64,000 bases of DNA from assembly GCF_003100395.1 (NCBI RefSeq), contig NZ_CP029210.1, positions 1,364,001 through 1,428,000 on the forward strand, written 5' to 3'. Below are positions 12,564 through 33,261 of this stretch, in pieces. The notes beneath the pieces were generated by a model. The model had not been told where the DNA came from, searched no databases, and was given only the letters and a program-made list of their open reading frames with translations. The number at the start of each line of letters is the position of its first letter. Position 1 is the first letter of the stretch. Position numbers and translations under genes: made by a program. This stretch comes from Aquabacterium olei (GTDB taxonomy: Bacteria; Pseudomonadota; Gammaproteobacteria; Burkholderiales; Burkholderiaceae_C).

Positions 12564-13942
12564 GCACGTCCTTGCGCGCAAGGCTGGTTCGCAGCCTGCT
12601 GGTGGTCTTGCTGCCGGTGTGGGTGGCGATGGCCGCATGGACGTACTGGTCTGTGGTGGAGGAGGTCGACGAGATCTACGACCAGCAGCTGATGGCGGTG
12701 GCCTTGCCCCTGCTGCCGCAGTCCGTCGCGGCATTGCATGAGTCGCTGGACGAGATGCTGATCGACGAGCCCGACGGCGACGGGGTGGACCTCGCCGTGC
12801 TGGCGTGGTCACCACAGGGGGCGTTGCTGTACCGCAGCCCGATGGCGCCACCGCTGGCGTTTGCCGAACGCCCACGTGACCCGGCCGGCTTGCGCACCGC
12901 GAGCACCGTGGATGTCGGTGGGCTCGGCTGGCGGGTGTGGTGGTTCGAGCAGGCGCAGGCCGGGCGCTGGCTGGCGGTGCTCAAGCCCATGACCGAACGC
13001 AACGAACTGGCACGGGCGCTGGCGCTGGGCCTGGGCTTGCCAACCCTGGCCACGGTGCTCTTGCTCACGCCGGTGGTACGTTGGGGGGTGCGCAGGGGGT
13101 TGATGCCCTTGCATCAATTGGGCAAACAGATTGCGCGGCGTCGTGCGGTGGATCTGGCGCCGGTGAGTGAGGCCGGGCAGCCGTCGGAAACCGTGCCGCT
13201 GGTGCAGGAGATCAACGCGCTGATGACGCGGCTGGCACGAACCCTGGCGACCGAACGGCGCTTTACGGCCGATGCCTCACACGAACTCCGCACGCCGCTG
13301 GCGGCCTGCCGGGCTCAGATCGAGGTGGCACGCGGGGCAGACGAGGCGCAAGTGCGTGAGACGGCGCTGGCGAACGCCATGCAGGCGCTCGACCGGGCCA
13401 CGCGGCTGACCGACGAGCTGCTCGCGCTGGCCCGCCTTGACCATGACACGGAAGCGCCCTTGAGCGCCACGCCCGGCTGGCGGCATGACCTGGATCTGGC
13501 TGCGCTGGTGCAAGACCGGGTGGCCGCGGTCGCGGTGGCCGCCCTGGCACGTGGCCTGGAGGTGTCCTTGCAGGCTGCCCTCGGCGTGCCGCACGTGCCC
13601 GGGCACCCGGAGTGGATCGCGATGGCGGTCGACAACCTGCTGAGCAACGCGTTGAAGTACACGCCCTCAGGTGGTGAGGTGCGGGTCGCGGTCGATCCGA
13701 TGGAGGGCGGTGTCGCCGTTGTCGTGCACGACACCGGCCCGGGTGTGCGTCCGGAGGACCTGCCCAGGCTGGGCGACCGATTCGATCGACTCGGTGCGCG
13801 GGGAGACGGGGCGGGGCTCGGGCTGTCGATCGCGCGCCAGGTGGCGGCCCGGCATGGCGGGCACCTGGTCTTTGCGCTCGATGGCGGCCTGCGTGCGATG
13901 CTGACCCTGCCGCGGCAAGCCCCCGAGGTCACGCGGTCTTGA
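12560..13942 (+). CDS. Two-component sensor histidine kinase (QseC/PmrB-like)
   Basis: A 460-residue membrane kinase that starts with GTG overlapping the regulator stop. The N-terminal helix ([22 protein letters not shown]) and a second one near 155-180 enclose a short periplasmic sensor of about 120 residues. Then follow a HAMP-like linker ([20 protein letters not shown]), the phosphorylated His241 in [10 protein letters not shown] and the ATPase with N box ([14 protein letters not shown]), G1 ([11 protein letters not shown]) and G2 ([12 protein letters not shown]). The layout is that of the QseC/TctE family. The periplasmic part contains an acidic patch ([15 protein letters not shown]) that could bind cations, as in PmrB/PhoQ-type sensors; this is inference. 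Its 3' end overlaps the convergent ureG gene by 14 bases. Confidence 0.9.
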
Positions 13943-14576
13943 GCATCCCTTTGGTCTCGATGAACGAGATCACCTGGTCCAGCCCCGCCTTCGTCTTCAG
14001 GTTCGTCATCACGAACGGGCGCGTCGGGCGCATGCGTTTCGTGTCGGCCTCCATGACCTCGAGGTTGGCGCCCACGTAGGGGGCCAGGTCGGTCTTGTTG
14101 ATCACGAACAGGTCGCTCTTGGTGATGCCGGGGCCGCCCTTGCGCGGGATCTTCTCGCCGGCGGCCACGTCGATCACGTAGATGGTGAGGTCGGACAGCT
14201 CGGGGCTGAAAGTGGCGGCCAGGTTGTCGCCGCCCGACTCGATGAAGACGATGTCGGCGTTCGGGTACTTGGCCAGCATGCGGTCGACGGCTTCGAGGTT
14301 GATCGAGGCGTCTTCGCGGATGGCGGTGTGCGGGCAGCCGCCGGTCTCCACGCCCATGATGCGTTCCGGATCCAGCGCACCCGCCACGGTCAGCAGGCGC
14401 TGGTCTTCCTTTGTGTAGATGTCGTTCGTGATGACGACGAGGTCGTACTGCTCGCGCAGGGTCTTGCAGAGCATCTCGAGCAGGGTCGTCTTGCCGGAGC
14501 CCACCGGGCCGCCCACGCCCACGCGCAGCGGGGGCAGTTTCTTGGTGCGGCCGGGGATGTGGTGCAGGTTGCTCAT
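13929..14576 (-). CDS. ureG: Urease accessory GTPase UreG
   Basis: A 215-residue SIMIBI-class GTPase that energises nickel delivery to apo-urease together with UreE, UreF and UreD. The P-loop [11 protein letters not shown] (21-31), the metal-binding CPH motif in [34 protein letters not shown] and the guanine-specificity NKTD are all present. The ATG overlaps the ureF stop by 4 bases (ATGA), so they are translationally coupled. Length and motifs are standard. It is the last gene of the urease operon and runs into the convergent histidine kinase gene. Confidence 0.96.
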
Positions 14577-15331
14577 GATCGGAACAGGCGGGAGTATTGC
14601 GTTTCGTGCTGGGCACTCAGGATGGCCAGCATGGGGGTGAAGGCCTGGCGCTGCGAGTCGGGCAGGGTCAGGGCGTGGTCGATGGCGTCGGGGATGGCGT
14701 CCACCAGGGCCTGGAGGATGCGCTGGCCGGCGCTCTGGCCCAGCGGCACGGCCTTGATGGCTGCCTGCACCATGTTCTCGGCCCAGCCAAAGGTGAAGCT
14801 CAACAGGGCTTCGCGCAGGGCGGCGTCGCTGTCCTGACCGGGGGCGGCGGCGGGCAGGCACTGCGCCACGGCCAGCGCAAAGGCGACGGGCCAGGTGGGG
14901 GCGGGCGGTAGGGCCGCGCACTGGGCCAGCCTGGCGTCGTCGGCATCGGCCTGTGCGCCACCCCCGCGGTTGCGCAGCCACTCAACCAGCGAGCGGCCCA
15001 TCTGCTCGGTCTGCAGCCGCAACTCGCTGGTCTCGCGGGTCTGCAGCACCCAGTCGTTCAGTTCGTGCACGCGGGCAAGGTCATGTCGCTGCCAGGCCGG
15101 CACGGCACGTGCCACCACGGCCAGGTCGCTGCGGGCCACGGCCAGGTGGAGCTGGTCGCGCAGCCAGGCGGCGGCGTCGGCTTCACCGGTGACGCGGCCC
15201 GAATCGACCGCGGCCTCCAGGCCTTCGGAGTAGCTGAAGCCGCCCACCGGCAAGGCGGGCGAGGCCAGCCACATCAGATGCAACCGGGCGCCAGGCGAGA
15301 GCGGCGCCGGGCGAGACAGGACGCGCGGCAT
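14573..15331 (-). CDS. ureF: Urease accessory protein UreF
   Basis: A 252-residue all-helical accessory protein that bridges UreD and UreG in the urease activation complex. Motifs characteristic of UreF are [24 protein letters not shown] near the N-terminus, [26 protein letters not shown] in the middle and [26 protein letters not shown] toward the end. The start directly abuts the ureE stop (TGA-ATG) and the end overlaps ureG by 4 bases, so ureE-F-G form one tight translational unit. It is slightly longer than average owing to an Ala/Pro-rich stretch ([14 protein letters not shown]). Confidence 0.94.
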
Positions 15332-16060
15332 TCAGTGGTCGTGATCGTGGTCGTGACCGCAGCCCGGGCCGTGCACGTGCGGCGCCGGTGCGGCCTTCAC
15401 GGCGATGCCAATGGGTTTGCCGCGGCTGGCGCTGGCGGCGGGGGCGGCGTGATCGTGATGACCATGGCTGCAACCCGGGCCGTGCACGTGCCCGGGGGCG
15501 CCGTGGGGCGGGTTGGCCGTGCCGTGGGCGTGTCCATGGTCGTGGTCGTGCCCCGCGTGGTCGTGCCCGCCGTGGTCATGGCTGTGGCCGTGATGCCCAT
15601 GCCCGCCGCTGGCGTAGGCACCGCCTTCGGGCTCGAAGCCTTCGGTGGCCTCGCGCACCGTCAGGTGCATGGCGCGCAGCATGTCGGCCAGCACGTGATC
15701 GGGCTCGATCTTCAGGTAGTCGGGCTGCAGCTCGATCTGCACATGGCGGTTGCCCAGGTGGTAGGCGGCTCGCACCAGGTCGAAGGGCGAGCCGTGCTCG
15801 GCGCAGGGCGTGATCACCAGCACCGGCTGCGGGGCCGCCTGTACGCGGATCATTGCGCCATCTTCGGTCACCAGCACGTCGCCGCCGCGCACCACGGTGC
15901 CGCGGGGCAGGAACACGCCCAGGGTGCGGCCCTGGCTGTCGGTGGCGTCGAAGCGGCTCTTCTGGCGCACGTCCCAGTCGAGTTCGACGGTGGCAGCGCG
16001 TTTGAGCAGCACGGAGGCCAGGCCCTGGCCTTGGGGGAGGAGTTTGTTGACGGTCAGCAT
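15332..16060 (-). CDS. ureE: Urease nickel metallochaperone UreE with long His-rich tail
   Basis: UreE hands Ni2+ to the urease active site. Residues 1-150 hold the peptide-binding domain (LDWDVRQKSRFDATDSQGRTLGVFLPRGTVVRGGDVL) and the metal-binding domain (AAYHLGNRHVQIEL, with the conserved metal histidine in GNRH). From about residue 153 to 242 the protein turns into a histidine-rich tail with about 26 His and two Cys, built of H-x-H and H-D-H runs and two copies of HVHGPGC-x-H. The Klebsiella protein has a tail of about 15 residues, so this one is unusually long and may store nickel. The gene follows ureC after 15 bases and abuts ureF. Confidence 0.95.
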   Translation of the reverse strand: MLTVNKLLPQGQGLASVLLKRAATVELDWDVRQKSRFDATDSQGRTLGVFLPRGTVVRGGDVLVTEDGAMIRVQAAPQPVLVITPCAEHGSPFDLVRAAYHLGNRHVQIELQPDYLKIEPDHVLADMLRAMHLTVREATEGFEPEGGAYASGGHGHHGHSHDHGGHDHAGHDHDHGHAHGTANPPHGAPGHVHGPGCSHGHHDHAAPAASASRGKPIGIAVKAAPAPHVHGPGCGHDHDHDH

Positions 16061-16075: not shown

Positions 16076-17803
16076 TCAGAACAGGAAGTAACGCTGCGCC
16101 ATGGGCAACTCGGTGGCCGGCTCGCACACCAGCAGCTGGCCGTCGGCACGCACCTGGTAGGTCTGCGCATCGATCTCCATCTTCGGCAGATAGTGGTTGT
16201 GCACCATGTCGGCCTTCTTCACGGTGCGGCAGCCCTTCACGCCCACGATGGTCTTCTTCAGGCCGTACTGCTCGGGCAGGCCGGCCGCGATGGCGGCCTG
16301 GCTCATGAAGGTCAGCGAGGTGCGCTGCAGGGCGCCCCCGAAACTGCCGAACATGGCGCGGTAGTGCACCGGCTGCGGCGTGGGAATCGAGGCGTTCGGG
16401 TCACCCATGGCCGCGGCCGCAATGAAGCCGCCCTTCATGATGATGCTGGGCTTGATGCCGAAGAAGGCGGGCTTCCAGATCACCAGATCGGCCCACTTGC
16501 CTTCTTCGACGCTGCCCACTTCGTGCGACACGCCGTGGGCGAGCGCCGGGTTGATGGTGTACTTGGCCACATAGCGCTTGACGCGCGCGTTGTCGTGGCG
16601 GGCCGTGTCGCCGGGCAGGGCGCCACGCTGGGCCTTCATCTTGTGAGCCGTCTGCCAGGTGCGCAGAATGACCTCGCCGACGCGGCCCATGGCCTGCGAG
16701 TCGGAGCTGAACATGCTGATGGCGCCCAGGTCGTGCAGGATGTCCTCGGCGGCAATCGTTTCACGGCGGATGCGGCTTTCGGCGAAGGCCAGGTCTTCGG
16801 CGATCGAGGCATCGAGGTGGTGACACACCATGAGCATGTCGAGGTGCTCGTCGATGGTGTTGACCGTGAAGGGGCGCGTCGGGTTGGTCGACGAGGGCAG
16901 CACGTTGGGCTCGCCCACCACCTTCATGATGTCGGGTGCGTGGCCACCGCCCGCGCCTTCGGTGTGGAAGCTGTGGATGGTGCGGCCCTTGAACGCGGCC
17001 ACGGTGTCCTCCACAAAGCCCGATTCGTTCAGCGTGTCAGTGTGGATGGCGACCTGCACATCCGTTTCTTCGGCCACGCTCAGGCAGGTGTCGATGGCCG
17101 CGGGCGTGGTGCCCCAGTCTTCGTGCAGCTTCATGCCGATCACGCCGGCGTTCACCTGCTGGCGCAGCGCCTCGGGCTGCGAGGCATTGCCCTTGCCCAG
17201 AAAGCCGATGTTCATGGGGAAGGCCTCGGCCGCCTTCAGCATCAGGGCGATGTTGTCGGGCCCCGGCGTGCAGGTGGTGGCAAAGGTGCCGGTAGCGGGG
17301 CCAGTGCCGCCGCCGATCATGGTGGTCACGCCGCTCATCAGCGCCTCTTCGATCTGCTGCGGGCAGATAAAGTGGATGTGCGTGTCGATGCCGCCGGCCG
17401 TGACGATCATGCCTTCGGCGGCCACGATCTCGGTGCCCGGGCCGATGACGATGTCGACGCCGGGTTGCACGTCGGGGTTGCCGGCCTTGCCGATCTTGAC
17501 GATGCGGCCGGCCTTGATGCCGATGTCGGCCTTGACGATGCCCCAGTGGTCGAGGATGAGTGCGTTGGTCAGCACGCAGTCACACGCGTCGCCAGCCTCC
17601 GGGCCGTTCATGCGCTGGCTCTGGCCCATGCCGTCACGGATGGTCTTGCCGCCGCCGAACTTCACCTCTTCGCCGTAGCCGCCGGCCTGCAAGGTCAGGT
17701 CACGCTCGACCTCGATGATGAGGTTGGTGTCGGCCAGGCGCACGCGGTCGCCGGTGGTGGGGCCGAACATCTCGGCATACGCGCGTCGGGGAATGCTTGC
17801 CAT
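16076..17803 (-). CDS. ureC: Urease alpha subunit
   Basis: The catalytic subunit (575 residues) hydrolyses urea to ammonia and carbamate at a di-nickel centre. All active-site residues are in place with a constant offset of +8 from the Klebsiella enzyme: His142 and His144 (THIHF), the carbamylated Lys225 (GMKLHEDWG), His254, His280, the mobile-flap Cys327 and His328 (MVCHHLD) and Asp368 (MFSSDSQ). The N-terminus [26 protein letters not shown] is canonical. The gene lies 62 bases after ureB and 15 bases before ureE on the minus strand. The product is expected to be a fully active cytoplasmic urease if UreD is supplied from elsewhere. Confidence 0.98.
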
Positions 17804-17865: not shown

Positions 17866-18171
17866 TCAGAGCGCGCCCTGAACAAGGCCGCGGAAGCCGA
17901 AGACCACGCGGTCGCCGGCGTAGTCCACCAGCTCGACGGTGCGTTGCTGGCCGGGCTCGAAGCGCACGGCGGTGCCGGATGCGATGTTCAGACGCATGCC
18001 GCGCGCGGCCTCACGGTCGAAGCGCAGGGCCCCGTTGGTTTCGGCGAAGTGGTAGTGCGAGCCGACCTGGATGGGACGGTCGCCCGCGTTCTCGACCACC
18101 AAGGTCAACGTGCGGCGGCCCGGGTTGAGCTCGATGTCCGGGCCGTCGGTGAGCAGTTCGCCGGGCGTCAT
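17866..18171 (-). CDS. ureB: Urease beta subunit
   Basis: A 101-residue structural subunit of urease, beginning [46 protein letters not shown], the conserved UreB sequence with the SHYHF motif. It ends with [15 protein letters not shown]. The ATG at 18171 shares one base with the stop of the preceding small gene; a GTG one codon upstream would give a 4-base overlap instead. UreA, UreB and UreC are separate polypeptides as in Klebsiella, not fused as in Helicobacter. Confidence 0.95.
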
Positions 18172-18353
18172 CACTTGCGGCCCTTGAACCAGACGGCCGC
18201 GCCCACGGCCACGGCGGCGGCCAGGAAGCCCAGCACGTCGGTGCTGTGCCAGTGCGCCACGCCCGGCATGCCGTGGCCTTCGTGGGCATGGGCAGACAGG
18301 CAGGTGAGGCCGGTGGCGAAGGCGGTCAGGGCAGTGTGAATGGCGTGCTTCAT
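18171..18353 (-). CDS. Small exported His-containing protein in the urease operon
   Basis: A 60-residue protein with an N-terminal signal-like helix ending in [13 protein letters not shown], a short His-rich stretch ([16 protein letters not shown]) and a second hydrophobic helix ([17 protein letters not shown]) closed by KGRK. Similar small proteins sit between ureA and ureB in other Burkholderiales as I remember it, but no function is established. The five histidines after the predicted cleavage site would suit periplasmic metal binding, so a nickel-related role is possible. It resembles the N- and C-terminal edges of the much longer HupE/UreJ nickel permease without its middle, so it may be a remnant or an independent small protein. 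Its stop shares a base with the ureB start. Confidence 0.6.
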
Positions 18354-18479
18354 CGTGGTGCTCGTCGGGTAGACAGTGCGGCCGGTAGGCCGGTCGAGAG
18401 GGGCGGCGTGGTGCGTGAGCTTATGACGTCGTTGGCGCAATGCGCTTGATTGGTGCATCGCGCGCCGGGTTGTACGGTG

Positions 18480-18782
18480 TCATGCAATCGGTTGGTGCAC
18501 GGTCACCAACTTGGTGCCATCCGGGAAGGTGGCTTCCACCTGAATCTCAGGAATCAGATCGGCCACACCGTCCATCACGTCGGCGCGGCTCAGCACGGTC
18601 TTGCCCTCGCTCATCAGCGCAGCCACGCTCTTGCCGTCGCGTGCGCCTTCCATGATGGCGGCCGTGATCATCGCCACCGCTTCCGGGTAGTTCAGCTTCA
18701 GCCCGCGGGCCTTGCGGCGCTCGGCCAGCAGGGCGGCGGTGAAGATCAGCAGCTTGTCTTTTTCGCGAGGGGTCAGTTCCAT
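18480..18782 (-). CDS. ureA: Urease gamma subunit
   Basis: A 100-residue urease structural subunit: [50 protein letters not shown] and [20 protein letters not shown] are all canonical UreA. It is the first gene of the leftward urease operon; the position usually occupied by ureD upstream of ureA is taken by a divergent permease-kinase gene only 71 bases away. About 125 bases separate it from the next (small) gene; I see no gene or clear structure in that gap. Confidence 0.96.
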
Positions 18783-18811: not shown

Positions 18812-18827
18812 CGGCACTGAAATTGCG
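18812..18827 (+). promoter_or_regulatory. Candidate sigma-54 promoter of the permease-kinase gene
   Basis: The + strand reads GGCAC, five bases, TTGC (GG at 18813-18814, GC at 18825-18826, ten bases between), which matches the -24/-12 core of RpoN promoters. It is in the 71-base gap between ureA and the permease-kinase gene, and transcription would start near 18838, about 16 bases before the ATG. The leader would then be short and no strong Shine-Dalgarno is visible. Sigma-54 control would fit a nitrogen-scavenging locus. NtrC-type enhancer sites were not identified. Confidence 0.45.
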
Positions 18828-18853: not shown

Positions 18854-21800
18854 ATGCAAGACCCAGACCAAAACAGTCCAGCCCTGAACGCGGCGCCCGG
18901 CGAGGCGCTGCAGCGTGTCGTCAAGGTGCGACGCGACTACAACACCTGGGTGGCCACCGAGACGCTGGAAGACTATGCCCTGCGCTTCACGCCCCGCTCG
19001 GCGCGCCGCTGGAGCGACTGGCGTGTGGCCAACACCGCGTTCGGGGCCTCGTCGTTTCTGGTGCTCGAGGCGGTGGGAGCCACCTTGCTGGTCGAGCACG
19101 GCTTCCTCAACGCCTTCTGGGCCATTCTGGCCACGGGGCTGATCATCCTGCTGGCCGGCTGGCCGATCAGCGTCTATGCCGCCCGGCACGGCGTCGACAT
19201 GGACCTGCTGACGCGGGGCGCGGGCTTTGGCTACATCGGCTCGACCATCACCTCGCTGATCTACGCGAGCTTCACCTTCATCTTCTTCGCGCTCGAAGCC
19301 GCCGTCATGGCCTATGCGCTGGAGCTTGCCTTCGACATCCCGCCCGCCTGGGGTTACCTGGTCTGCGCGCTGGTGGTGATCCCGCTGGTCACCCACGGGG
19401 TCACGACCATCAGCCGGCTGCAGCTGTTCACGCTGCCTTTGTGGCTGGTGATGCTGGTGGTGCCCTATGTCTACGTCTTTCAGGATCACCCGACGATCCT
19501 GCATGACCTGGCCGGCTATGCGGGCGCCGATGGGCAGCATGGCGCCTTCAGTGTGCTGGGCTTCGGTGCGGCGCTGACGGTGGGCGTGGCCCTGATCACG
19601 CAGATGGGCGAGCAGGCCGACTACCTGCGCTTCATGCCGGAGGCCCGGCCCGGGCAGCCCGCACGCTGGTGGGCCTCGGTGTTCGTGGGCGGGCCGGGTT
19701 GGGTGATACCCGGCGTGCTGAAGATGCTGGGCGGTGCGTTGCTGGCCTGGCTGGCCATGAGCTTCGCCGTGCCGGTCGAGCGGGCGCTGGATCCGAACCA
19801 GATGTACCTCGTCGCGTGGGAGAAGGTTTTTCCCGATCAACGCTGGGCGATTGCCGCGGTGGCGCTGTTCGTCGTCGTGTCGCAGATCAAGATCAACGTG
19901 ACGAATGCCTATGCCGGTTCGCTGGCGTGGTCGAACTTCTTTGCGCGGGTCACGCACAGCCACCCCGGGCGGGTGGTGTGGGTCGTGTTCAACACCGTGA
20001 TTGCCTTGCTGCTGATGGAGCTGAATCTGTTCCAGGCGCTGGGCAAGGTGCTGGGGCTGTACGGCAACATCGCCATCGCGTGGATCATGGCGGTGGTGGC
20101 CGATCTGGTCATCAACAAGCCCTTGGGCTGGTCGCCGCCGGGCATCGAGTTCAAGCGGGCTTATCTGTACGACATCAACCCGGTCGGGGTGGGCGCGATG
20201 GGCGTGGCCTCGCTGGTGTCGGTGCTGGCCCATGTGGGGCTGCTGGGCGAGCTTGCCCAGGCCTTCTCGGCGGTGATCGCCATGGTCGTCGCCTTCGTCG
20301 TGTCGCCTTTGATCGCCTGGGCCACGAAAGGGCGCTACTACCTGGCGCGGGCCCAGTTCGAGCCCCAAGCCGCCGCGGCTGCGGAGGGCCATGAGCCAGC
20401 CGGCATCCCTGCGGGCCGGCCACTGAGCAAGGTGATCCGCCTGCGCGCACTGCACCGCTGCACGGTGTGTGAGCGCGAATACGAGCAGGACGACGTGGCG
20501 CAATGCCCGGCCTACCAGGGCTTCATCTGCTCGCTGTGCTGTTCGCTCGATGCGCGCTGCCAGGACCTGTGCAAGCCACACGCGCGCTGGGCCGTGCAGT
20601 GGCGGGCGCTGGGCCGGCGGCTGCTGCCGGATCGCCTGTGGCAGCGCGTGGACACCGAACTGGGCCAGTTCCTGGTGGTGATGCTGGTGCTGACGGGCCT
20701 GCTGGGCGCGCTGTTCGGCCTGGTGTTCCAGCAGCAGCTGCGCGAGCTGGACAGCATCGTGCCCACCGCGATGGACCCGGCCCAGCTGCTCCAGCAGGCC
20801 TTCACCAAGGTGTTCGCCGCGCTCGTGCTGATCGTGGGCGTGGTGGCGTGGTGGGTGGTGCTCACGCACAAGAGCCGTCAGGTGGCTCAGGAAGAATCGA
20901 ACCGGCAGACCCATCTGCTGGTGCGCGAGATTGCCTCGCACCGCGTCACCGACGAGAAGCTGCAGCAGGCCAAGCAGACCGCCGAGCAGGCCAACCTGGC
21001 CAAGAGCCGCTACATCTCGACCATCAGCCATGAGTTGCGCACACCACTCAACGGCATCCTCGGCTATGCCCAGCTGCTTGATGAAGACGAGAAGCTGCCC
21101 GAGCACGTCAAGCACGCCGTGGGTGTCATCAAGCGGGGGGGCGACCACCTGCTGTCGCTCATCGAAGGCACGCTCGACATCGCGCGCATTGAAAGCGGCA
21201 AGCTCACGCTGGACGTGAAGCCGGTCCGGCTGCCGGAGCTGCTGTATCAGATGGTGAGCCTCATCGAGCCCGAGGCGCGCGCCAAGCAGCTGCGTTTCGT
21301 CGCCGACATCGACCCGGGCCTGCCCGACGTGGTGCGGGCCGACGAAAGGCGTGTGCGCCAGATCCTGATCAACGTGCTGGGCAACGCGGTGAAGTTCACC
21401 CATGCCGGCGAGGTGTGCTTCAAGGTGCGCTATGCGCGAGAGATTGCGCAGATCGACATCACCGACACGGGGCCCGGGATTGCGCAGGAGGAGCTCGACA
21501 AGGTGTTCGAGCCGTTCGCGCGGGGTTCATCGGCGGCCGGCAGCTCGGCCAGTGGCACAGGGCTGGGGCTCACGATCAGCAAGATGCTGACGGACCTCAT
21601 GGGCGGCGAGATGCGGGTGCAGAGCGCACCAGGTATCGGCACGACGTTCAGCATCCGACTGTTCCTGCCCCAGGTGCGGGTGGCCGGCCTGGCCCAGGCG
21701 GCGCCACGCCGCGGGCAGCGCACGGGCTACGTCGGCGAGCGCCGCCGCATCTGGGTGGTGGACAACGAAGAGGCCGACCGCGGCCTGCTGGTCCGCATCC

Positions 21801-22405
21801 TCGAGCCGCTGGGCTTCGAGGTGACGCCGCTGCCGTCTGGCGTGGCGTGCCTGGCGCAGTTGCGCGCTACGCCGCCGCTGGCCTTGCCCCATGCCCTGTT
21901 CATGGATCTGGCCATGCCCGGCCTCGACGGGTGGGACACGCTGCGCGCCATCCGTGAGCAGCGCCTGTGCGACGCGCCGTCGGCCATCGTGTCGGCCAAC
22001 GCGTTCGACAAGGCGCTGGAAAACGATGTGGGCATCACGCCCGACGACTTCATCGTCAAGCCGGTGCGCGTGAGTGAACTGCTGGACTGGCTGGGGCGCC
22101 GACTAGGTTTGCAGTGGATCGAGTCGGTCACCGACCGGGGGGCGCCCGGCTCGGTGGTGCCGGCGCCCGCGACAGCGGCCCCGACGGCCTCGCTGCCGTC
22201 GCACGACGCCCTGCGCCGGCTGGAGGATCAAGTGCACACTGGCTACATGCGGGGCGTGCACCAGGCGCTCGACCAGATGGCCGCCGACGAGCCGGCCTGC
22301 GAGGCCTTCGTGCAGCGCATGCGGACGATGGCGCGCCAGTTTCAGCTCGATGCCATGGCCTCGAGCCTGCGCGAGGCGCTGGCGCAGGCACAATCGGCGC
22401 CGTGA
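18854..22405 (+). CDS. NCS1-type permease fused to hybrid histidine kinase (transporter-sensor)
   Basis: A 1183-residue fusion. Residues about 30-500 are an NCS1 (cytosine/purine/allantoin) permease of about 12 helices, starting with DYNTWVATETLEDYALRFTPRSARRWS and carrying SQIKINVTNAYAGSLAWSNFF. A cysteine-rich module follows (about 536-575, CTVCEREYEQDDVAQCP...CSLCCSLDARCQDLC) that looks like a metal-binding knuckle, then two more helices (about 615-670) and a coiled coil. The kinase core has His726 in [17 protein letters not shown] box (LINVLGNAVKFT) and G boxes (DTGPGIAQ, GTGLGLTIS). A receiver (VVDNEEADR, Asp1018 in LFMDLAMPG) and a helical C-terminus follow. It probably senses transport or binding of a nitrogenous compound. 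The REC-LuxR gene 18 bases downstream is the obvious partner. Fusions of this type near urea genes exist in related bacteria, but the ligand is unknown to me. Confidence 0.88.
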   Translation: MQDPDQNSPALNAAPGEALQRVVKVRRDYNTWVATETLEDYALRFTPRSARRWSDWRVANTAFGASSFLVLEAVGATLLVEHGFLNAFWAILATGLIILLAGWPISVYAARHGVDMDLLTRGAGFGYIGSTITSLIYASFTFIFFALEAAVMAYALELAFDIPPAWGYLVCALVVIPLVTHGVTTISRLQLFTLPLWLVMLVVPYVYVFQDHPTILHDLAGYAGADGQHGAFSVLGFGAALTVGVALITQMGEQADYLRFMPEARPGQPARWWASVFVGGPGWVIPGVLKMLGGALLAWLAMSFAVPVERALDPNQMYLVAWEKVFPDQRWAIAAVALFVVVSQIKINVTNAYAGSLAWSNFFARVTHSHPGRVVWVVFNTVIALLLMELNLFQALGKVLGLYGNIAIAWIMAVVADLVINKPLGWSPPGIEFKRAYLYDINPVGVGAMGVASLVSVLAHVGLLGELAQAFSAVIAMVVAFVVSPLIAWATKGRYYLARAQFEPQAAAAAEGHEPAGIPAGRPLSKVIRLRALHRCTVCEREYEQDDVAQCPAYQGFICSLCCSLDARCQDLCKPHARWAVQWRALGRRLLPDRLWQRVDTELGQFLVVMLVLTGLLGALFGLVFQQQLRELDSIVPTAMDPAQLLQQAFTKVFAALVLIVGVVAWWVVLTHKSRQVAQEESNRQTHLLVREIASHRVTDEKLQQAKQTAEQANLAKSRYISTISHELRTPLNGILGYAQLLDEDEKLPEHVKHAVGVIKRGGDHLLSLIEGTLDIARIESGKLTLDVKPVRLPELLYQMVSLIEPEARAKQLRFVADIDPGLPDVVRADERRVRQILINVLGNAVKFTHAGEVCFKVRYAREIAQIDITDTGPGIAQEELDKVFEPFARGSSAAGSSASGTGLGLTISKMLTDLMGGEMRVQSAPGIGTTFSIRLFLPQVRVAGLAQAAPRRGQRTGYVGERRRIWVVDNEEADRGLLVRILEPLGFEVTPLPSGVACLAQLRATPPLALPHALFMDLAMPGLDGWDTLRAIREQRLCDAPSAIVSANAFDKALENDVGITPDDFIVKPVRVSELLDWLGRRLGLQWIESVTDRGAPGSVVPAPATAAPTASLPSHDALRRLEDQVHTGYMRGVHQALDQMAADEPACEAFVQRMRTMARQFQLDAMASSLREALAQAQSAP

Positions 22406-22423
22406 TGCACAGAGCCTGAACCG

Positions 22424-23383
22424 ATGCTGGAGACACTCGACCGCAGCCGTACCGACGTCGTCCTCATCGTGGACGACGTGCCGGACAACCTCTCCTTGCT
22501 GCACGATGCGCTGGACGAAGCCGGCTACACCGTGCTGGTGGCCACCCACGGCGAGGCCGCGCTGCAACGGGCTTCGCAGATGGTGCCCGACATCATCCTG
22601 CTGGATGCCGTCATGCCCGGCATGGACGGCTTCGAAGTGGCCCGGCGTCTGAAGGCCACCGCCGAAACCAGCCACATCCCCATCGTCTTCATGACCGGCC
22701 TGAGCGAGACCGAGCATGTGGTGGCGGCCTTCCAGGCGGGCGGCGTGGATTACGTGGTCAAACCCATTCGGCCACGCGAGGTGCTGGCCCGCATCGAGGC
22801 CCACATGCACAGTGCCCGGCAGGCCCGGCAGGCGCGCAATGCGCTGGATGCGTTCGGTCATGCGTCGATGACCGTGCGCGTCCCGGATGGACGCATCCTG
22901 TGGCAGACGCCGCTGGCGCGCAAGCTGATGCAGGCCTTCTTCGACGTGCCGGAGACGGCTGCCCCGGCGGAGCTGGCCGACTGGCTGCGCCTGCACGCGC
23001 CACGCATGGCGCAGGCGATCGAGCGCGGCGAGGCACCGCCCCTCCCGCCGGCCTGGGTGGTGAACCAGGGTAGCCGTCGGTTGAGCTTTGCGCTGCACCA
23101 GCCCACGGGCGAAGACGAGTGGCTGCTGGTGATGCAGGAAAGCTCCGACCAGGCTGCGATGGAAGCCCTGAGCCAGGAGTTCAAGCTCACCACGCGCGAG
23201 GGCGAGGTGCTGTACTGGGTGGTGAAGGGCAAGACCAACCGCGACATCGGCGACATCCTGGGCAGCAGCCCGGCCACGGTCAAGAAGCAGCTCGAGCATA
23301 TCTTTGCCAAGCTGGGGGTGGAGACGCGCACGGCGGCGGCAGGGCTGGCGATGAGCCGGGTGGGGCAGCTGAAGGCCCGCTGA
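22424..23383 (+). CDS. REC-PAS-like-LuxR response regulator
   Basis: A 319-residue regulator directly downstream of the permease-kinase gene. The receiver occupies 10-130 with DD pair VDD (17-18), phospho-acceptor Asp61 (IILLDAVMPGMDG) and the Lys in YVVKPIRP. A middle region of about 100 residues (150-250) contains VRVPDGRILWQTPLARKLMQAFF and resembles a PAS fold. The C-terminus is a LuxR/GerE helix-turn-helix (LTTREGEVLYWVVKGKTNRDIGDILGSSPATVKKQLEHIFAKLGVETRTAA). Co-transcription with the kinase makes it the likely output of that sensor, with urease or urea transport genes as plausible targets. It converges on a Nudix gene with about 50 bases between. Confidence 0.88.
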   Translation: MLETLDRSRTDVVLIVDDVPDNLSLLHDALDEAGYTVLVATHGEAALQRASQMVPDIILLDAVMPGMDGFEVARRLKATAETSHIPIVFMTGLSETEHVVAAFQAGGVDYVVKPIRPREVLARIEAHMHSARQARQARNALDAFGHASMTVRVPDGRILWQTPLARKLMQAFFDVPETAAPAELADWLRLHAPRMAQAIERGEAPPLPPAWVVNQGSRRLSFALHQPTGEDEWLLVMQESSDQAAMEALSQEFKLTTREGEVLYWVVKGKTNRDIGDILGSSPATVKKQLEHIFAKLGVETRTAAAGLAMSRVGQLKAR

Positions 23384-26403: not shown

Positions 26404-26532
26404 GCTTTGCTGACTCATTTCGGTGCGCGGAGCCCAAACTGGAGGGGGTAAGTCATTGTCGTTGCCTATCGAACGGATAGCGTCAACTTCTTTGACGTGG
26501 ACATGCCGTCCGCGTGAGCCCCTGCACCACCG

Positions 26533-26550
26533 ATACGCCATGTGGCGTAT
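26533..26550. promoter_or_regulatory. Palindromic operator candidate upstream of urtA
   Basis: ATACGCCA, two bases, TGGCGTAT: a perfect 8-bp dyad centred about 137 bases upstream of the urtA ATG. The length and the tight spacing suit binding of a dimeric regulator. A second dyad, CGTCAA/TTGACG, lies at 26481-26497. The candidate binders in the window are the two LuxR-type regulators at 22424 and 32498, but any link is inference. Confidence 0.5.
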
Positions 26551-26678
26551 TCCGCCTTTGCGACCCCCTCGGCACACTGAACCCATCTGATCGCACAAGG
26601 GCCCGACAGGGCGCCCCGGATCAGAACCTGGTTCCCCTTGTTCACGTTCAACCCACCGCTTCAAAGGAGCGCCTTCAC

Positions 26679-27956
26679 ATGAACATCTCGCGTCGTAGCG
26701 CCGTCCAGTCCTTGTCTGCTGTCGCCCTGGGCGTCGCCGGTCTGGCCTTCAGCACCATGGCTTCGGCCGCAGACACCATCAAGGTCGGCGTGCTGCACTC
26801 GCTGTCCGGCACCATGGCCATCTCGGAAACGGTGCTCAAGGACACCGTGCTGATGGCGATCGACGAGATCAACGCGAAGGGCGGCCTGCTGGGCAAGAAG
26901 CTCGAACCCGTGGTGGTGGACCCAGCCTCGAACTGGCCGCTGTTCGCCGAGAAGGCCAAGCAGTTGCTGACCCAGGACAAGGTGGCCGTGACCTTCGGCT
27001 GCTGGACCTCGGTGTCGCGCAAGTCGGTGCTGCCGGTCTACAAGGAGAACAACGGCCTGCTGTTCTACCCCGTGCAGTACGAAGGTGAAGAGCTCGAGAA
27101 GAACGTGTTCTACACCGGCGCCGCGCCCAACCAGCAGGCCATTCCCGCGGTGGAATACCTGATGAGCAAGGACGGCGGCTCGGCCAAGCGCTTCGTGCTG
27201 CTGGGCACCGACTACGTCTACCCGCGCACCACCAACAAGATCCTGCGCGCCTTCCTGAAGTCCAAGGGTGTGGCCGAGGCCGACATCATGGAGGAGTACA
27301 CCCCCTTCGGCCACTCCGACTACCAGACCATCATTGCCAAGATCAAGAAGTTCGCTTCCGAAGGCAAGAAGACGGCCGTGGTCTCGACCATCAACGGCGA
27401 CTCGAACGTGCCCTTCTACAAGGAACTGGGCAACCAGGGTCTGAAGGCCAAGGACGTGCCCGTGGTGGCCTTCTCGGTGGGTGAAGAAGAACTGCGCGGC
27501 GTGGACACCAAGCCGCTGGTCGGCCACCTGGCTGCCTGGAACTACTTCATGAGCGTCAAGAGCCCGGCCAACACCGAGTTCATCAAGAAGTGGTCGGCTT
27601 ATGCCAAGGCCAAGAACATCGCCGGCCACAAGGACAAGCCGCTGACCAACGACCCGATGGAAGCCACCTACATCGGCATCAACATGTGGGCCCAGGCCGT
27701 CAAGAAGGCCGGCACCACCGATGTGGACAAGGTGATTGCCGCGATGGCCGGCCAGACCTTCCCGGCCCCGGGTGGCTTCATGTCCAAGATGGACGAGAAG
27801 AACCACCACCTGCACAAGCCGGTGTTCATCGGCGAGGTGAAGGCCGACGGCCAGTTCAAGGTGGTCTGGAAGACCCCGGGCCCGGTCAAGGCCCAGCCCT
27901 GGAGCCCCTACATCCCCGGAAACGACAAGAAGAAGGACGAGCCGGAAGCCAAGTAA
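26679..27956 (+). CDS. urtA: Urea ABC transporter substrate-binding protein
   Basis: A 425-residue periplasmic binding protein of the branched-chain amino acid/urea type. The signal peptide MNISRRSAVQSLSAVALGVAGL ends in ASA before ADTIKVGVLHSLSGTMAISE, the typical UrtA N-terminus. GCWTSVSRKSVLPVYKENNGLLFYPVQYEGEE and NDPMEATYIGINMWAQAVKKAG are strongly UrtA-like and distinguish it from LivJ. RBS AAAGGAG lies 9 bases before the ATG. It is the first gene of urtABCDE and is followed by a strong terminator-like hairpin that should give the binding protein in excess over the rest. NtrC or carbon/nitrogen control is usual for this operon, but no site was proven here. Confidence 0.95.
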   Translation: MNISRRSAVQSLSAVALGVAGLAFSTMASAADTIKVGVLHSLSGTMAISETVLKDTVLMAIDEINAKGGLLGKKLEPVVVDPASNWPLFAEKAKQLLTQDKVAVTFGCWTSVSRKSVLPVYKENNGLLFYPVQYEGEELEKNVFYTGAAPNQQAIPAVEYLMSKDGGSAKRFVLLGTDYVYPRTTNKILRAFLKSKGVAEADIMEEYTPFGHSDYQTIIAKIKKFASEGKKTAVVSTINGDSNVPFYKELGNQGLKAKDVPVVAFSVGEEELRGVDTKPLVGHLAAWNYFMSVKSPANTEFIKKWSAYAKAKNIAGHKDKPLTNDPMEATYIGINMWAQAVKKAGTTDVDKVIAAMAGQTFPAPGGFMSKMDEKNHHLHKPVFIGEVKADGQFKVVWKTPGPVKAQPWSPYIPGNDKKKDEPEAK

Positions 27957-28022: not shown

Positions 28023-28058
28023 CGCCCCTTGGGGGGTAACCCCAGGGGGCGTTTTTTT
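28023..28058 (+). terminator. Terminator hairpin between urtA and urtB
   Basis: A 12-bp stem (CGCCCCTTGGGG with CCCCAGGGGGCG, one G-T pair, loop GGTAA) is followed by seven T. It lies 66 bases after the urtA stop and 16 bases before the urtB start. It probably acts as a leaky terminator inside the operon, so that urtA transcript is in excess. Confidence 0.85.
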
Positions 28059-28073
28059 GCCGCCGACAACGAC

Positions 28074-29714
28074 ATGACTGGAATGCCTGTGAAGACACCA
28101 GACGCCGCATCGACCTGCCGTCGCCCCAGCCTGACCCGCTGGCTGAGCGCCGCCCTGATGGCCGCCTTGCTGGGCTGCCAGAGTGCCCACGCGCTGACCC
28201 CTGACGAGGCCTACGCCGTGGCCGCTGGAGACAACGATGCGCGCATTGCCGCCCTGCAGCTGCTGGTGGTGAAGAACGACCCGGGCCTGCCCGCCTTTCT
28301 GGAGGCGCTGGCCGCCGACAGTGTGAAGGTGGCCGGCAACCGCGCCTACATCGTCGAGGGCGACACCGCCCGCGAAGCCGCATCGGGCCAGCCCGCGAAG
28401 CTGCCCGACGACGCCGAGGACGTGGTCAACAACAACCGGATGTCCAGCGAGATCGAGGCGGCCCTGGCCGCGGGCAAGCTCAGCTCAACGGATCCGGCCG
28501 AGCGGGCGAGTGCCATCGAGGCCCTGAGCAACGCGGCCGATGAATCGAAGCTGGCCGTGATCGACAAGGCCCTGGCCAGCGAGCAAGATGCCCGTCTGAA
28601 GGCGCAACTGGAGATGGTGCGCGCGAAGGCGCTGTTGACGGCCACTGACGCTGCGCGCCGCATTGAGGCTGCACGTGCATTGGGCGAGCGCGCCAGCCCC
28701 GAGGCCCGCGCGCTGCTGATGGAGCGCCTGGCCGATGGTGGCGAAACCGATGCCGCCGTGCGCGGTGCGCTGCAAGCCGAACTGGACGCCATCAACCGCA
28801 AGCTGGCCTGGGGCGAGTACGCCGGTGTGCTGTTCACCGGCGTCAGCCTGGGCTCCATCCTGCTGCTGGCAGCGCTGGGCTTGGCCATCACCTACGGGCT
28901 GATGGGCGTGATCAACATGGCGCACGGCGAGCTGATGATGATCGGCGCCTACGCCACGTTCGTCATTCAGAACCTGTTCCGGCAGCACCTGCCGCAGTTC
29001 TTTGACTGGTACATCCTGCTGGCCGTGCCGGCGTCCTTCCTGGCTGCAGCTGCGGTCGGGGCGGTGCTCGAGCGCGGCGTGTTCCGCTTCCTGTATGGCC
29101 GCCCGCTCGAGACCCTGCTGGCGTCCTGGGGCATCAGCCTCATCCTGATGCAGGCGGTGCGGTCGGTGTTCGGCGCGCAGAACGTGCAGGTCGAGAACCC
29201 CAACTGGATGTCGGGCGGCTTCGAGGTGTTGAGCAACCTGACCTTGCCCTACAACCGCCTGGCCATCATCGCGTTTGCCGGCCTGGTGCTGCTCGGCATC
29301 ACGCTGCTGATCGCGAAGACCCGACTTGGCCTGTTCGTGCGCAGCGTCACCCAGAACCGCCCGATGGCCTCGTGCGTCGGCGTCAACACCGCGAAGGTCG
29401 ACACGATGGCGTTCTCGCTGGGTGCGGGGATTGCGGGCCTGGCCGGGTGTGCGCTTTCGCAGATCGGCAACGTGGGACCCGACCTCGGGCAGAACTACAT
29501 CGTCGATTCGTTCATGGTGGTGGTGACCGGCGGGGTGGGCCAACTGGCGGGCACCGTGTATGCAGCCATGGGCCTGGGCATGGTGAACAAGCTGCTGGAA
29601 GGCTGGTCCGGTGCCGTGCTGGCGAAGATCATGGTGCTGGTCATCGTGGTGATCTTCATCCAGAAGCGTCCGCAAGGACTGTTCGCCATGAAGGGCCGCA
29701 GCGCCGAAGCCTGA
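28074..29714 (+). CDS. urtB: Urea ABC transporter permease UrtB
   Basis: A 546-residue permease. Like UrtB in general it has an extra N-terminal half: a signal-like helix (SLTRWLSAALMAALLGCQSAHA) and a soluble, helical, Ala-rich domain of about 200 residues, before the LivH-type membrane domain (about 250-540) that starts LFTGVSLGSILLLAALGLAITYGLMGVINMAHGELMMIGAYATF. The conserved INMAHGE motif and GGVGQLAGTVYAA support the assignment. The start at 28074 is chosen over an earlier in-frame codon that would lie within the terminator hairpin; 28083 is also possible. Confidence 0.94.
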   Translation: MTGMPVKTPDAASTCRRPSLTRWLSAALMAALLGCQSAHALTPDEAYAVAAGDNDARIAALQLLVVKNDPGLPAFLEALAADSVKVAGNRAYIVEGDTAREAASGQPAKLPDDAEDVVNNNRMSSEIEAALAAGKLSSTDPAERASAIEALSNAADESKLAVIDKALASEQDARLKAQLEMVRAKALLTATDAARRIEAARALGERASPEARALLMERLADGGETDAAVRGALQAELDAINRKLAWGEYAGVLFTGVSLGSILLLAALGLAITYGLMGVINMAHGELMMIGAYATFVIQNLFRQHLPQFFDWYILLAVPASFLAAAAVGAVLERGVFRFLYGRPLETLLASWGISLILMQAVRSVFGAQNVQVENPNWMSGGFEVLSNLTLPYNRLAIIAFAGLVLLGITLLIAKTRLGLFVRSVTQNRPMASCVGVNTAKVDTMAFSLGAGIAGLAGCALSQIGNVGPDLGQNYIVDSFMVVVTGGVGQLAGTVYAAMGLGMVNKLLEGWSGAVLAKIMVLVIVVIFIQKRPQGLFAMKGRSAEA

Positions 29715-29724
29715 GGAGAAAACA

Positions 29725-30864
29725 ATGAGTGCAGTGATGACTTCCCCTTTGCCTGCGGCCGGTGTTGCGGTGCCCCGCAGCGCGCTGGGCCCCAAGGGCT
29801 GGACCGCCCTGATGGCCGCCGTGATCACGGTGGTCGTGCTGGCCCCGGTGCTCAACATGCTGGTGCCGGCCGGCTCGGCCTTCCACCTGTCGGACTACGC
29901 GGTCGCTCTGATCGGCAAGATCATGTGCTACGCCATCTGCGCGCTGGCCATGGACCTGATCTGGGGCTACACCGGCATCCTGTCGCTGGGCCACGGGCTG
30001 TTCTTTGCGCTGGGCGGCTACGGCATGGGCATGTACCTGATGCGCCAGATCGGCCGTGACGGCAGCTATGGCGCCGACATCCCGGACTTCATGGTCTTCC
30101 TGGACTGGAAGACGGTGCCCTGGCACTGGACGCTGAGCGAAAGCTTCATCGGGCAGATGCTGCTGGTGGTGCTGGTGCCGGGCCTGCTGGCCTTCGTGTT
30201 CGGCTTCTTCGCGTTCCGCAGCCGCATCAAGGGTGTGTATTTCTCGATCATCACGCAGGCGATGACGTTCGCGGCCATGCTGCTGTTCTTCCGCAATGAA
30301 ACGGGTTTCGGCGGCAACAACGGCTTCACCGACTTCAAGCGCATCCTCGACGTCCCGCTGGCGCAGCCGTCCACCCGCATGGTGCTGTTCGTCCTCACCG
30401 GCCTGACGCTGATCGGCTTCTACCTGATGGCCCGCTGGCTGGTGAACACCAAGTTCGGCCGGGTGCTCCAGGCCATCCGCGATGCCGAGAACCGCGTCAT
30501 GTTCTGCGGCTACAACCCGCTGGCCTACAAGCTCACCATCTGGACGATCTCGGCCGTGATGTGCGCCATTGCCGGTGCGCTGTATGTGCCCCAGGTCGGC
30601 ATCATCAACCCCAGCGAGATGTCCGCGGCGGCCTCCATCGAGATCGCGATCTGGACCGCGGTGGGGGGGCGTGCCACGCTGATCGGCCCGATCATCGGCG
30701 CCTTCTTCGTCAACGGGGCCAAAAGCTGGTTCACCGTGGCCTTCCCCGAGTTCTGGCTGTATTTCCTGGGGCTGCTCTTCGTGGTGGTGACCCTGTTCCT
30801 GCCGCACGGCATCGTCGGCGGCGTCAAGAAGCTGTTCAACAAGCAAGCAGAGGTGAAGGCATGA
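29725..30864 (+). CDS. urtC: Urea ABC transporter permease UrtC
   Basis: A 379-residue LivM-type permease with about nine to ten hydrophobic segments. Diagnostic text includes ALAMDLIWGYTGILSLGHGLFFALGGYGMGMYLMRQIG, NETGFGGNNGFTDFKRILD and WTAVGGRATLIGPIIGAFFVNGAKSWFT, the UrtC version of the permease motif. It pairs with UrtB to form the membrane channel for urea. GAGGAG is just upstream; the stop overlaps the urtD start by 4 bases (ATGA). Confidence 0.95.
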   Translation: MSAVMTSPLPAAGVAVPRSALGPKGWTALMAAVITVVVLAPVLNMLVPAGSAFHLSDYAVALIGKIMCYAICALAMDLIWGYTGILSLGHGLFFALGGYGMGMYLMRQIGRDGSYGADIPDFMVFLDWKTVPWHWTLSESFIGQMLLVVLVPGLLAFVFGFFAFRSRIKGVYFSIITQAMTFAAMLLFFRNETGFGGNNGFTDFKRILDVPLAQPSTRMVLFVLTGLTLIGFYLMARWLVNTKFGRVLQAIRDAENRVMFCGYNPLAYKLTIWTISAVMCAIAGALYVPQVGIINPSEMSAAASIEIAIWTAVGGRATLIGPIIGAFFVNGAKSWFTVAFPEFWLYFLGLLFVVVTLFLPHGIVGGVKKLFNKQAEVKA

Positions 30865-31760
30865 CCCCGGATCTGATGGAAGCGGGCACGCAGGCCCTGG
30901 CACGTGCTTACAAGACGCCCACCAATGCCGGCGAGTCAGGTGGCCGCGAGGCGAGCTACGGCCGCGTGGTGGACGATCCGGATCAGGTTGACCTGGCTCA
31001 CGGGTCGATCCTGTATCTCGACGACATCGAGGTGAGCTTCGACGGCTTCAAGGCTCTCAACAAGCTGAGCCTGGACATTGCCGTGGGCGAGATGCGCTGC
31101 ATCATCGGGCCCAACGGGGCGGGCAAGACCACGATGATGGACGTGATCACCGGGAAGACGCGGCCCGACAGCGGCACGGCCTTCTTCGGCTCGACCATCG
31201 ACCTGTTGAAGAAGCGCGAGAACGAGATCGCTCAGATCGGCATTGGCCGCAAGTTTCAGAAGCCCACGGTGTTCGAGCACCTGAGCGTGTTCGAAAACCT
31301 CGAGTTGGCGCTGAAGGCCGATCGCGGCCCGCGCGCCTCGGTGTTCTTCAAGCTGGGCAGCGAACAGCTGGACCGCATTGCCGCCATGCTGCAGCTCATC
31401 CACCTGAAGAGCCAGGCTCAGCGTACCGCCGGCCTGCTGTCGCACGGCCAGAAACAGTGGCTGGAGATCGGCATGCTGCTGATGCAGGACCCCAAGCTGT
31501 TGCTGCTCGATGAGCCCGTGGCCGGCATGACCGATGAAGAAACCGAGCGCACCGCCGAACTCTTCCTCTCGCTGGAAGGGGCCCATTCGCTGGTGGTGGT
31601 CGAGCACGACATGAAGTTCATCCACGAGCTCACCACGCAGGGCGCGACTGCCGGCAAGAAAAAGGTGACGGTGCTGCATGAGGGCAGCGTGCTGGCCGAA
31701 GGCACGCTCGCCGAGGTGCAGGCCAACGACAAGGTCGTCGAGGTCTACCTCGGACGCTGA
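30861..31760 (+). CDS. urtD: Urea ABC transporter ATP-binding protein UrtD
   Basis: A 299-residue ABC ATPase of the LivG class: Walker A GPNGAGKTT, Q-loop region IGRKFQKPTVFEHLSVFENLELALK, signature LLSHGQKQWLEIGMLL, Walker B LLLLDEPVAGMTDEE and the switch His in VVVEHDM. The signature LSHGQ replaces LSGGQ, as is usual for UrtD. A leader of about 45 residues precedes the nucleotide-binding domain, longer than in many homologues. It starts within the stop of urtC and is followed by urtE after 15 bases. Confidence 0.95.
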   Translation: MTPDLMEAGTQALARAYKTPTNAGESGGREASYGRVVDDPDQVDLAHGSILYLDDIEVSFDGFKALNKLSLDIAVGEMRCIIGPNGAGKTTMMDVITGKTRPDSGTAFFGSTIDLLKKRENEIAQIGIGRKFQKPTVFEHLSVFENLELALKADRGPRASVFFKLGSEQLDRIAAMLQLIHLKSQAQRTAGLLSHGQKQWLEIGMLLMQDPKLLLLDEPVAGMTDEETERTAELFLSLEGAHSLVVVEHDMKFIHELTTQGATAGKKKVTVLHEGSVLAEGTLAEVQANDKVVEVYLGR

Positions 31761-31775
31761 TCAGGAGAGAACGAC

Positions 31776-32480
31776 ATGCTGAAGATCGAAGCCGTCAACC
31801 AGTATTACGGTGGCTCGCACATCCTGCGCGGGCTGGATTTCGAGGCGAAGGTGGGCGAGGTGACCGTCATCCTGGGCCGCAACGGCGTGGGCAAGACCAC
31901 GCTGCTCAAGAGCCTGATGGGCCTGGTGCAGATCAAGTCGGGCAGCATCACGCTGGATGGTCAGGCGATCGACCGCCTCAAGCCCTATGAGCGAGTGCGA
32001 CTGGGCGTGGGGTATGTGCCCCAGGGCCGCGAGATCTTCGGGCGCCTCACGGTGGCCGAGAACCTGCAGATGGGCCTGGCGAGCAAGCCCGGCAGCACGC
32101 CGCTGCCCGAGCAACTGTTCGAGCTGTTTCCGGTGCTCCAGCAGATGCTGCACCGCCGCGGGGGCGACCTGTCGGGCGGGCAGCAGCAGCAACTGGCGAT
32201 TGCCCGCGCGCTGGCTGCGGGCCCCAAGCTGCTGATCCTGGATGAGCCGACCGAGGGTATCCAGCCCAGCATCATCAAGGACATCGGGCGGGCCATCCGC
32301 AAGCTGGCCGATGAAGGGCTGAACGGCCAGCGCATGGCCATCGTGCTGGTCGAGCAGTTCTACGACTTCGCCGCAGAACTGGCCGACCAGTACCTGGTGA
32401 TGGAACGCGGCGAAGTGATCCGCCGTGGTCGGGGCGCCGACATGGAAGCCGACGGCGTGCGCCAGCTGATGTCGATCTGA
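31776..32480 (+). CDS. urtE: Urea ABC transporter ATP-binding protein UrtE
   Basis: A 234-residue LivF-class ABC ATPase: Walker A GRNGVGKTTLLKSLMG, Q-loop VPQGREIFGRLTVAENLQMG, signature LSGGQQQQLAIARAL, Walker B LLILDEPTEGIQPSI and the switch His replaced by Gln (VLVEQFYDFA), normal for LivF/UrtE. RBS AGGAGA precedes the ATG. It closes urtABCDE; the next gene converges with 17 bases between stops, so the urea operon has no room for ureD behind urtE, where it often sits in this order. Confidence 0.95.
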   Translation: MLKIEAVNQYYGGSHILRGLDFEAKVGEVTVILGRNGVGKTTLLKSLMGLVQIKSGSITLDGQAIDRLKPYERVRLGVGYVPQGREIFGRLTVAENLQMGLASKPGSTPLPEQLFELFPVLQQMLHRRGGDLSGGQQQQLAIARALAAGPKLLILDEPTEGIQPSIIKDIGRAIRKLADEGLNGQRMAIVLVEQFYDFAAELADQYLVMERGEVIRRGRGADMEADGVRQLMSI

Positions 32481-33148: not shown

Positions 33149-33261
33149 GAGGGACGGTTCCAACTCGCGGGTCTCGGGCGGGTCCCCGAATAAACCTGAG
33201 TCGGCTGAGGCCTGAGCTGGAAAGGTAGACTGCAGTCCCCTATCTTAACGACACATTCACC

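Follow-up and report, generated by a model that had tools for sequence, protein, structure and literature searches.

Fusions of a transporter to a histidine kinase have so far been known mainly from the SLC5-STAC group, and of the systems described so far the closest that we found are three of its histidine kinases, CbrA, CrbS and RpuS (excerpts of PMC13022988, PMC5715377 and PMC9100948). Like them, the kinase reported here is a single chain made up of a membrane domain of transporter fold, a linker module and kinase domains. Its membrane domain has the NCS1 fold and falls outside the SLC5 (SSF) definition, whereas theirs has the SLC5 fold; in place of their STAC four-helix bundle, the linker appears in the model as an eight-cysteine module and a membrane hairpin; and the proposed ligand is urea or an amide rather than histidine, acetate or pyruvate. 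Unlike these systems, the family of the present module also has GGDEF-EAL and SpoIIE outputs. In Ectopseudomonas guguanensis G3 (2026), a second urtABCDE operon lies by two-component genes of the LuxR family, fmdA has the adjoining locus tag, and a figure legend names a hybrid kinase; the excerpts of this paper (PMC13296017) treat the locus as annotation only and speak of no permease fusion and no role in sensing. We found neither an NCS1-kinase fusion nor the present urea or formamide sensor described in the literature searched, which mostly leaves out subscription titles, so that this is not proof of absence, and the excerpts of PMC11109136 and PMC8905175 contain nothing on an NCS1-kinase fusion. 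We consider it probable that the kinase beside the urease operon is a receptor derived from an NCS1-type permease, with urea as ligand, the cysteine module and hairpin as relay and a LuxR-type output to the ure and urt genes.

Architecture of the chain and fold of its membrane domain

The window, that is, the whole stretch of 64,000 nucleotides of Aquabacterium olei DNA analysed here, contains an uninterrupted single frame with an ATG start (18854..22405, +) that encodes an NCS1-fold hybrid histidine kinase of 1183 residues. Pfam matches HisKA at residues 716-782 and HATPase_c at 830-938 (together 716-938; 20999..21667, +), followed by a receiver domain, Response_reg, at 966-1078 (21749..22087, +). 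The phospho-acceptor His726 and Asp1018 of the receiver were assigned by motif, and the presence of HisKA, HATPase_c and a receiver with both residues classes the protein as a hybrid histidine kinase. The C-terminal stretch (residues about 1110-1183; 22181..22402, +) has no Pfam match, and the rows shown for TorS, LuxQ and similar NCBIfam models score below their cut-offs and cover the kinase part. The database search scored 7999 relatives; among the best 120, which are 64-95% identical, 119 span 98-100% of the query and one spans 85%. Because the relatives cover the full query length, the permease-kinase fusion is not an assembly artefact. The reading frame, Pfam and these relatives together bear out the gapless one-frame fusion of permease, cysteine-rich module, kinase and receiver proposed in the preliminary description.

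The membrane domain (residues about 24-495; 18923..20338, +), for which we propose a role as urea or amide sensor, is a bundle of about 12 helices with the NCS1 type of the LeuT fold in a predicted model for which 141 relatives were thinned to 68. CodB and Mhp1 were its best matches in the fold search, by a clear margin. Pfam gave no match for residues 1-504 even at E<=10, and Transp_cyt_pur (PF02133) was absent from five fused relatives at E<=1. The earlier label NCS1, a family which we take to be TC 2.A.39, is kept because of the fold, of the stand-alone permease relatives G103 and G343, which do match Transp_cyt_pur, and of the JGI source name 'purine-cytosine permease-like protein'. The fold thus supports the label, whereas Pfam is silent, and since the domain itself lacks a Transp_cyt_pur match we call it an NCS1-fold relative, not a member by the curated model. 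In a profile search of PDB sequences, RING fingers appeared at E 2.4-4.4 and CodB at 5.4, values not significant alone; the same search with G103 gave nothing useful.

Unlike CodB and Mhp1, the domain has no Pfam match and is fused to signalling domains; judged by sequence alignment, it also carries Lys-Ile in place of the sodium-binding threonines and has altered nucleobase contacts. We took the contacts of CodB from excerpts of PMC9379551 and those of Mhp1 from excerpts of PMC4195764. The CodB residue map is sequence-based, and the match behind it is weak (30% hhalign probability, E 5e-4, over the first half). In this map T141, F144 and L247 or I248 occupy the positions of the cytosine contacts Gln105, Trp108 and Phe204, and Lys346/Ile347 those of the sodium ligands Thr278/Thr279. 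The missing Na2 threonines and aromatic sandwich do not exclude an NCS1 assignment, because the NCS1 protein L238 lacks them too. Judged by spacing from Trp108, the position of Mhp1 Gln121 carries Glu148, which is replaced by Val in the close relative L021. Many residues of the domain are invariant in alignment A2 and among the listed matches of two database searches (240 proteins, the best 120 matches from each); Lys346 is conserved in 239 of these 240, the last one being gapped. The Na2 site of CbrA contains a lysine, K196 (excerpt of PMC13022988), to which K346, aligned with the sodium ligand Thr278, may correspond, a tentative parallel in view of the weak CodB sequence match.

The linker appears in the model as a cysteine module with short strands, followed by a hairpin. 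The module (residues about 533-577; 20450..20584, +) contains Cys 536, 539, 551, 559, 562, 563, 569 and 573, and all eight are invariant in alignment A2 and in 240 of the 240 database proteins among the matches listed. The second helix of the predicted two-helix hairpin (residues about 602-676; 20657..20881, +) runs unbroken from 642 to 699 in the model, nearing HisKA at 716. Modelled alone, module and hairpin had no significant match in a PDB fold search: the best Foldseek match to the module had an E of 1.3, RING- and PHD-type fingers were among the weak ones (all E>1), and a second aligner returned rows mostly over the helices. This weak resemblance to two-zinc fingers hints at a structural role for the cysteines, and the module probably binds zinc. 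As urease needs nickel and the cysteines are constant among the matches listed, one could instead suppose that the module is the true sensor, of a metal such as nickel or of redox state, and that the permease part is an anchor. We hold this to be very improbable: the same cysteines are invariant across the urease-linked, formamidase-linked and unlinked members that alignment A2 mixes, the weak finger resemblances hint at a structural part, and a long conserved permease would be needless.

Gene neighbourhoods of the kinase and its relatives

The urease operon diverges from the kinase. Its ureA (18480..18782, -), 71 bases from the kinase coding region, is followed by a 95-aa ORF without Pfam match (18171..18458, -), ureB (17866..18171, -), the urease alpha gene ureC (16076..17803, -), ureE (15332..16060, -), ureF (14573..15331, -) and ureG (13929..14576, -). 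We assigned ureA and ureB by similarity, both being conserved beside relatives, ureC and ureE by Pfam and NCBIfam, ureF by Pfam, and ureG by Pfam and similarity. On the other side, after 18 bases, lies a REC-LuxR response regulator of 319 aa (22424..23383, +) with the Pfam matches Response_reg 13-125 and GerE 255-308. About 3.1 kb beyond it begins urtA, which encodes a periplasmic binding protein (26514..27956, +; assigned by similarity, start codon uncertain), and then come urtB, urtC, urtD and urtE (28029..32480, +), which we named from similarity and gene order; the start of urtB, too, is uncertain. This is the layout given in the preliminary description, with a divergent urease operon, a urea transporter 3 kb away and a regulator 18 bases downstream, except that Pfam finds no PAS domain between the receiver and LuxR parts of the regulator.

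The matches to ureB and ureA are spaced roughly 1 kb in many relatives. The ureD gene, often found beside ureABC, lies outside the window at G000:C1:2217669-2218292, about 0.8 Mb from the urease operon. Another regulator (32498-33163, -), with a LuxR-type HTH followed by a receiver, adjoins urtE. Further on, there is a giant frame of 5628 codons (34228-51114, +), probably for a giant surface adhesin, whose first 1000 residues include Calx-beta and LapA-type domains; the opposite strand of this region is also open for 5157 codons.

The linkage to urea genes recurs across the host's family, where a survey of 120 genomes gave matches in 73; with weak NCS1 matches in G545 and G575 dropped, 96 kinase matches in 71 of the 73 genomes remained. 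Within a radius of 12 kb, 57 of these are near ureC, 28 near fmdA, 2 near both and 9 near neither; eight of the nine are on contigs where no ureC or fmdA was found, and one is 821 kb distant. The kinase is present in each of the 31 genomes that carry fmdA, and in 30 it lies within 12 kb of this gene. The tie to ureC is less exclusive, and urease often occurs without the kinase: 59 of the 97 ureC matches have one within 12 kb. Counted by genome, 68 have ureC and kinase, 3 the kinase only, 25 ureC only and 24 neither. The neighbouring gene pairs are divergent in 82 of 89 cases. In the host's own genome, which served as a control, none of 63 other kinase-like matches is within 12 kb of ureC or fmdA.

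Beyond this survey, ure, urt or fmd genes occur within 9 kb of 124 of 141 kinase relatives, a set that is not independent, since 81 of its proteins come from the 80 top-ranking loci among 577 that a 12-row alignment recovered. The truncated L201 was left out of one set and three of 69 rows out of another. The regulator follows within 200 bases of the kinase in 125 of 133 testable relatives. Among 20 further loci, 15 are linked to ure, urt or fmd genes. The co-occurrence with ure and urt genes suggested earlier is thus strong in all three samples. No such genes were found in 17 of the 141 and 5 of the 20 neighbourhoods. Contig ends truncate five of the 17; L022, L024, L026, L035, L037, L070, L078, L091 and L097 have none despite 6.6-10 kb on both sides. 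The same holds, over flanks of 6.6-10 kb, for L223, L224 and L227, from one genus, and for L229, which lack the urea and formamide reference genes. These four loci, fetched as 20 kb, belong to another class of the phylum and have a LuxR regulator; their ligand or targets may lie elsewhere.

In sister clades the neighbours are formamidase or an AmiS/UreI channel. The host's own genome carries a paralogue with 51% identity, and the operon divergent from it is a urt-type ABC operon with formamidase as its last gene. This paralogue (L004 9311-12766; G000:C1 about 897310-900741) is full-length but has a single in-frame TAG a short way upstream of the kinase domain, so that the formamide sensor of the strain may be inactive or in two pieces; alternatively, the TAG may be a sequencing error. 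The permease tree, several deep nodes of which are weakly supported, interleaves formamidase-linked with urea-linked proteins. The urea-linked ones form a large group with the named Burkholderiales and Rhodocyclales relatives, a group of six loci of another class (L190, L193-L195, L197 and L199) and a small group (L181, L183 and L184), to which two further loci (L198 and L200) are added. The pair L189 and L196 adjoins an AmiS/UreI channel and formamidase. G343, the closest stand-alone permease of the phylum survey, adjoins a carbon-nitrogen hydrolase, a Peripla_BP_5 protein and an AmiR/ANTAR regulator; around the second, G103, the search found none of the reference genes for urea or amides. 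Small amides and urea are the shared theme of these neighbourhoods, with exceptions.

Residue 313, between the seventh and eighth membrane helices, was considered as a switch between urea and formamide. In the first set, it is D in the urea-linked proteins of four groups (71/72, 6/6, 3/3 and 2/2) and E in 30 of 36 fmd-linked ones, the others having D (5) or Q (1). In the 20 further loci, 15 of them linked, the E rule held (8 of 9 fmd-linked, one D) and the D rule failed, with D in one of six urea-linked proteins and E, Q, Q, T and T in the others. Residue 313 is therefore a weak candidate for a ligand switch, by counts that ignore kinship.

The ligand is most likely urea in the kinase described here and formamide-like amides in the sister clades, as we infer from gene neighbourhood. 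The preliminary description had pointed to cytosine, allantoin, hydantoin or purines, as precursors of urea or ammonia; a sensor of these could induce the use of urea in advance. CodB and Mhp1 are indeed the nearest folds, and urea can arise from ureides. We nevertheless find this quite unlikely. When we searched 163 neighbourhoods with E. coli references at E<=1e-10, homologues of codA, allA, allB, allC, allE, hyuA, guaD, xdhD and xanQ appeared as weak matches in one of them (L084, 26% to allB, with hyuA matching the same place), whereas UreC was found in 70 of these neighbourhoods, FmdA in 46 and UrtA-type proteins in 93. The cytosine contacts of CodB are changed in the sequence alignment, sister clades have formamidase or AmiS/UreI, and the breakdown of ureides is not known to yield formamide as a rule. 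The fold, the transceptor-like reading and the urea co-occurrence of that first interpretation are supported, and its ligands are not.

Guilt by association cannot separate a ligand from a target, and the amide genes could be the regulon of a sensor that does not bind the amide and responds instead to the energisation of the membrane, to ammonium status or to the state of a partner, for instance the ABC transporter. An urt- or fmd-type ABC operon adjoins the kinase in most loci examined, and a sigma-54-like site described below points to general nitrogen control. Against this, the transport partner varies between Urt, an fmd-linked ABC transporter and AmiS/UreI while the sensor stays, and many residues of the membrane domain are invariant. 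Such an input is in our estimate unlikely.

Promoter region and proposed signalling route

Between ureA and the kinase, a sigma-54-like -24/-12 site (18812..18826, +) faces the kinase, 27 bases before its start codon, and agrees with 9 of 10 bases of the consensus. Sites scoring at least 9/10 were found in 50 of 82 urea-linked upstream regions, in 11 of 42 formamide-linked and in 2 of 15 unlinked ones, where shuffling of the bases predicts 1.8, 0.6 and 0.6, respectively; this count left out two loci with fewer than 200 bases upstream. Some of these sites in relatives face the divergent operon. The regions upstream of urtA in the window and of the own-genome paralogue yielded no such site, with best scores of 5/10 and 7/10. 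The enrichment is suggestive only, because the loci are related and the consensus was picked after viewing the alignment. To our knowledge, LuxR-type regulators do not themselves open sigma-54 promoters.

Under the reading that we prefer, an amide receptor derived from a permease, the membrane domain would bind, and perhaps transport, urea, or formamide and other short amides in sister clades. Its rocking would be relayed through the cytosolic, probably zinc-binding eight-cysteine module and the membrane hairpin, the last helix of which is predicted to run towards the dimerisation helix of the kinase. Phosphate from His726 would then pass to Asp1018 of the same chain, to the neighbouring LuxR-type regulator, or to both, and the regulator would adjust the divergent urease operon and the urt transporter. 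Nitrogen supply may gate production of the sensor via a sigma-54 promoter. A transporter fold and a signalling output in one chain, as modelled, support a transceptor-like role.

A portable input module and its spread

A search of the class recovered a protein (L213 7365-10994, -) in which the permease-cysteine module is joined to PAS-GGDEF-EAL instead of a kinase. Among the best 120 matches listed for its residues 1-620, 55 have GGDEF and EAL, 48 a kinase domain, 9 a SpoIIE-type phosphatase and 5 GGDEF alone, and 3 have no listed output. All of these 120 have the eight cysteines as well as E148, Q250, E253, K346 and N348, our candidates for pocket residues. Varied outputs combined with conserved cysteines and pocket residues argue that the permease-cysteine-hairpin unit is a sensory input. 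The fusion beside the urea genes is one branch of a phylum-wide family, and the input module also feeds other outputs. Membrane sensory modules of the MASE and CHASE types are a comparable case of one input common to kinases, diguanylate cyclases and phosphatases; compared with these, the present module has a transporter fold of about twelve helices and a cysteine module, and no Pfam model matches it. It could be named and annotated at once. L213 and the kinases L214 and L215 have no ure, urt or fmd genes nearby, so the ancestral ligand may differ.

For the family as a whole, we put forward a broader proposal, more tentatively and at somewhat less than even chances. An NCS1-type bundle in which a sodium ligand became a fixed lysine would have been joined by a two-zinc module and hairpin to any output, serving in the phylum as a receptor for urea and amides outside the cell, with repeated switches between urea and formamide while the divergent layout was kept. 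If this is true, conversion of a permease into a receptor would be a general route, with a second transporter family, many genomes and at least three kinds of output. The sensor is also a candidate, open to direct test, for the means by which bacteria of soil and water recognise urea and formamide before they break them down, which bears on the loss of fertiliser nitrogen.

The permease part occurs in 11 of 184 genomes of the class (own genome and one stand-alone permease included), in 54 of 348 genomes of the phylum (own genome and one weak match included) and, at a strict cut-off, in 20 of 241 genomes of another class, four of which were already in the earlier sets. Some source names among the matches listed for L213 point beyond the phylum, to Campylobacterota and Mariprofundaceae. 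L213 itself joins a transporter fold to c-di-GMP turnover.
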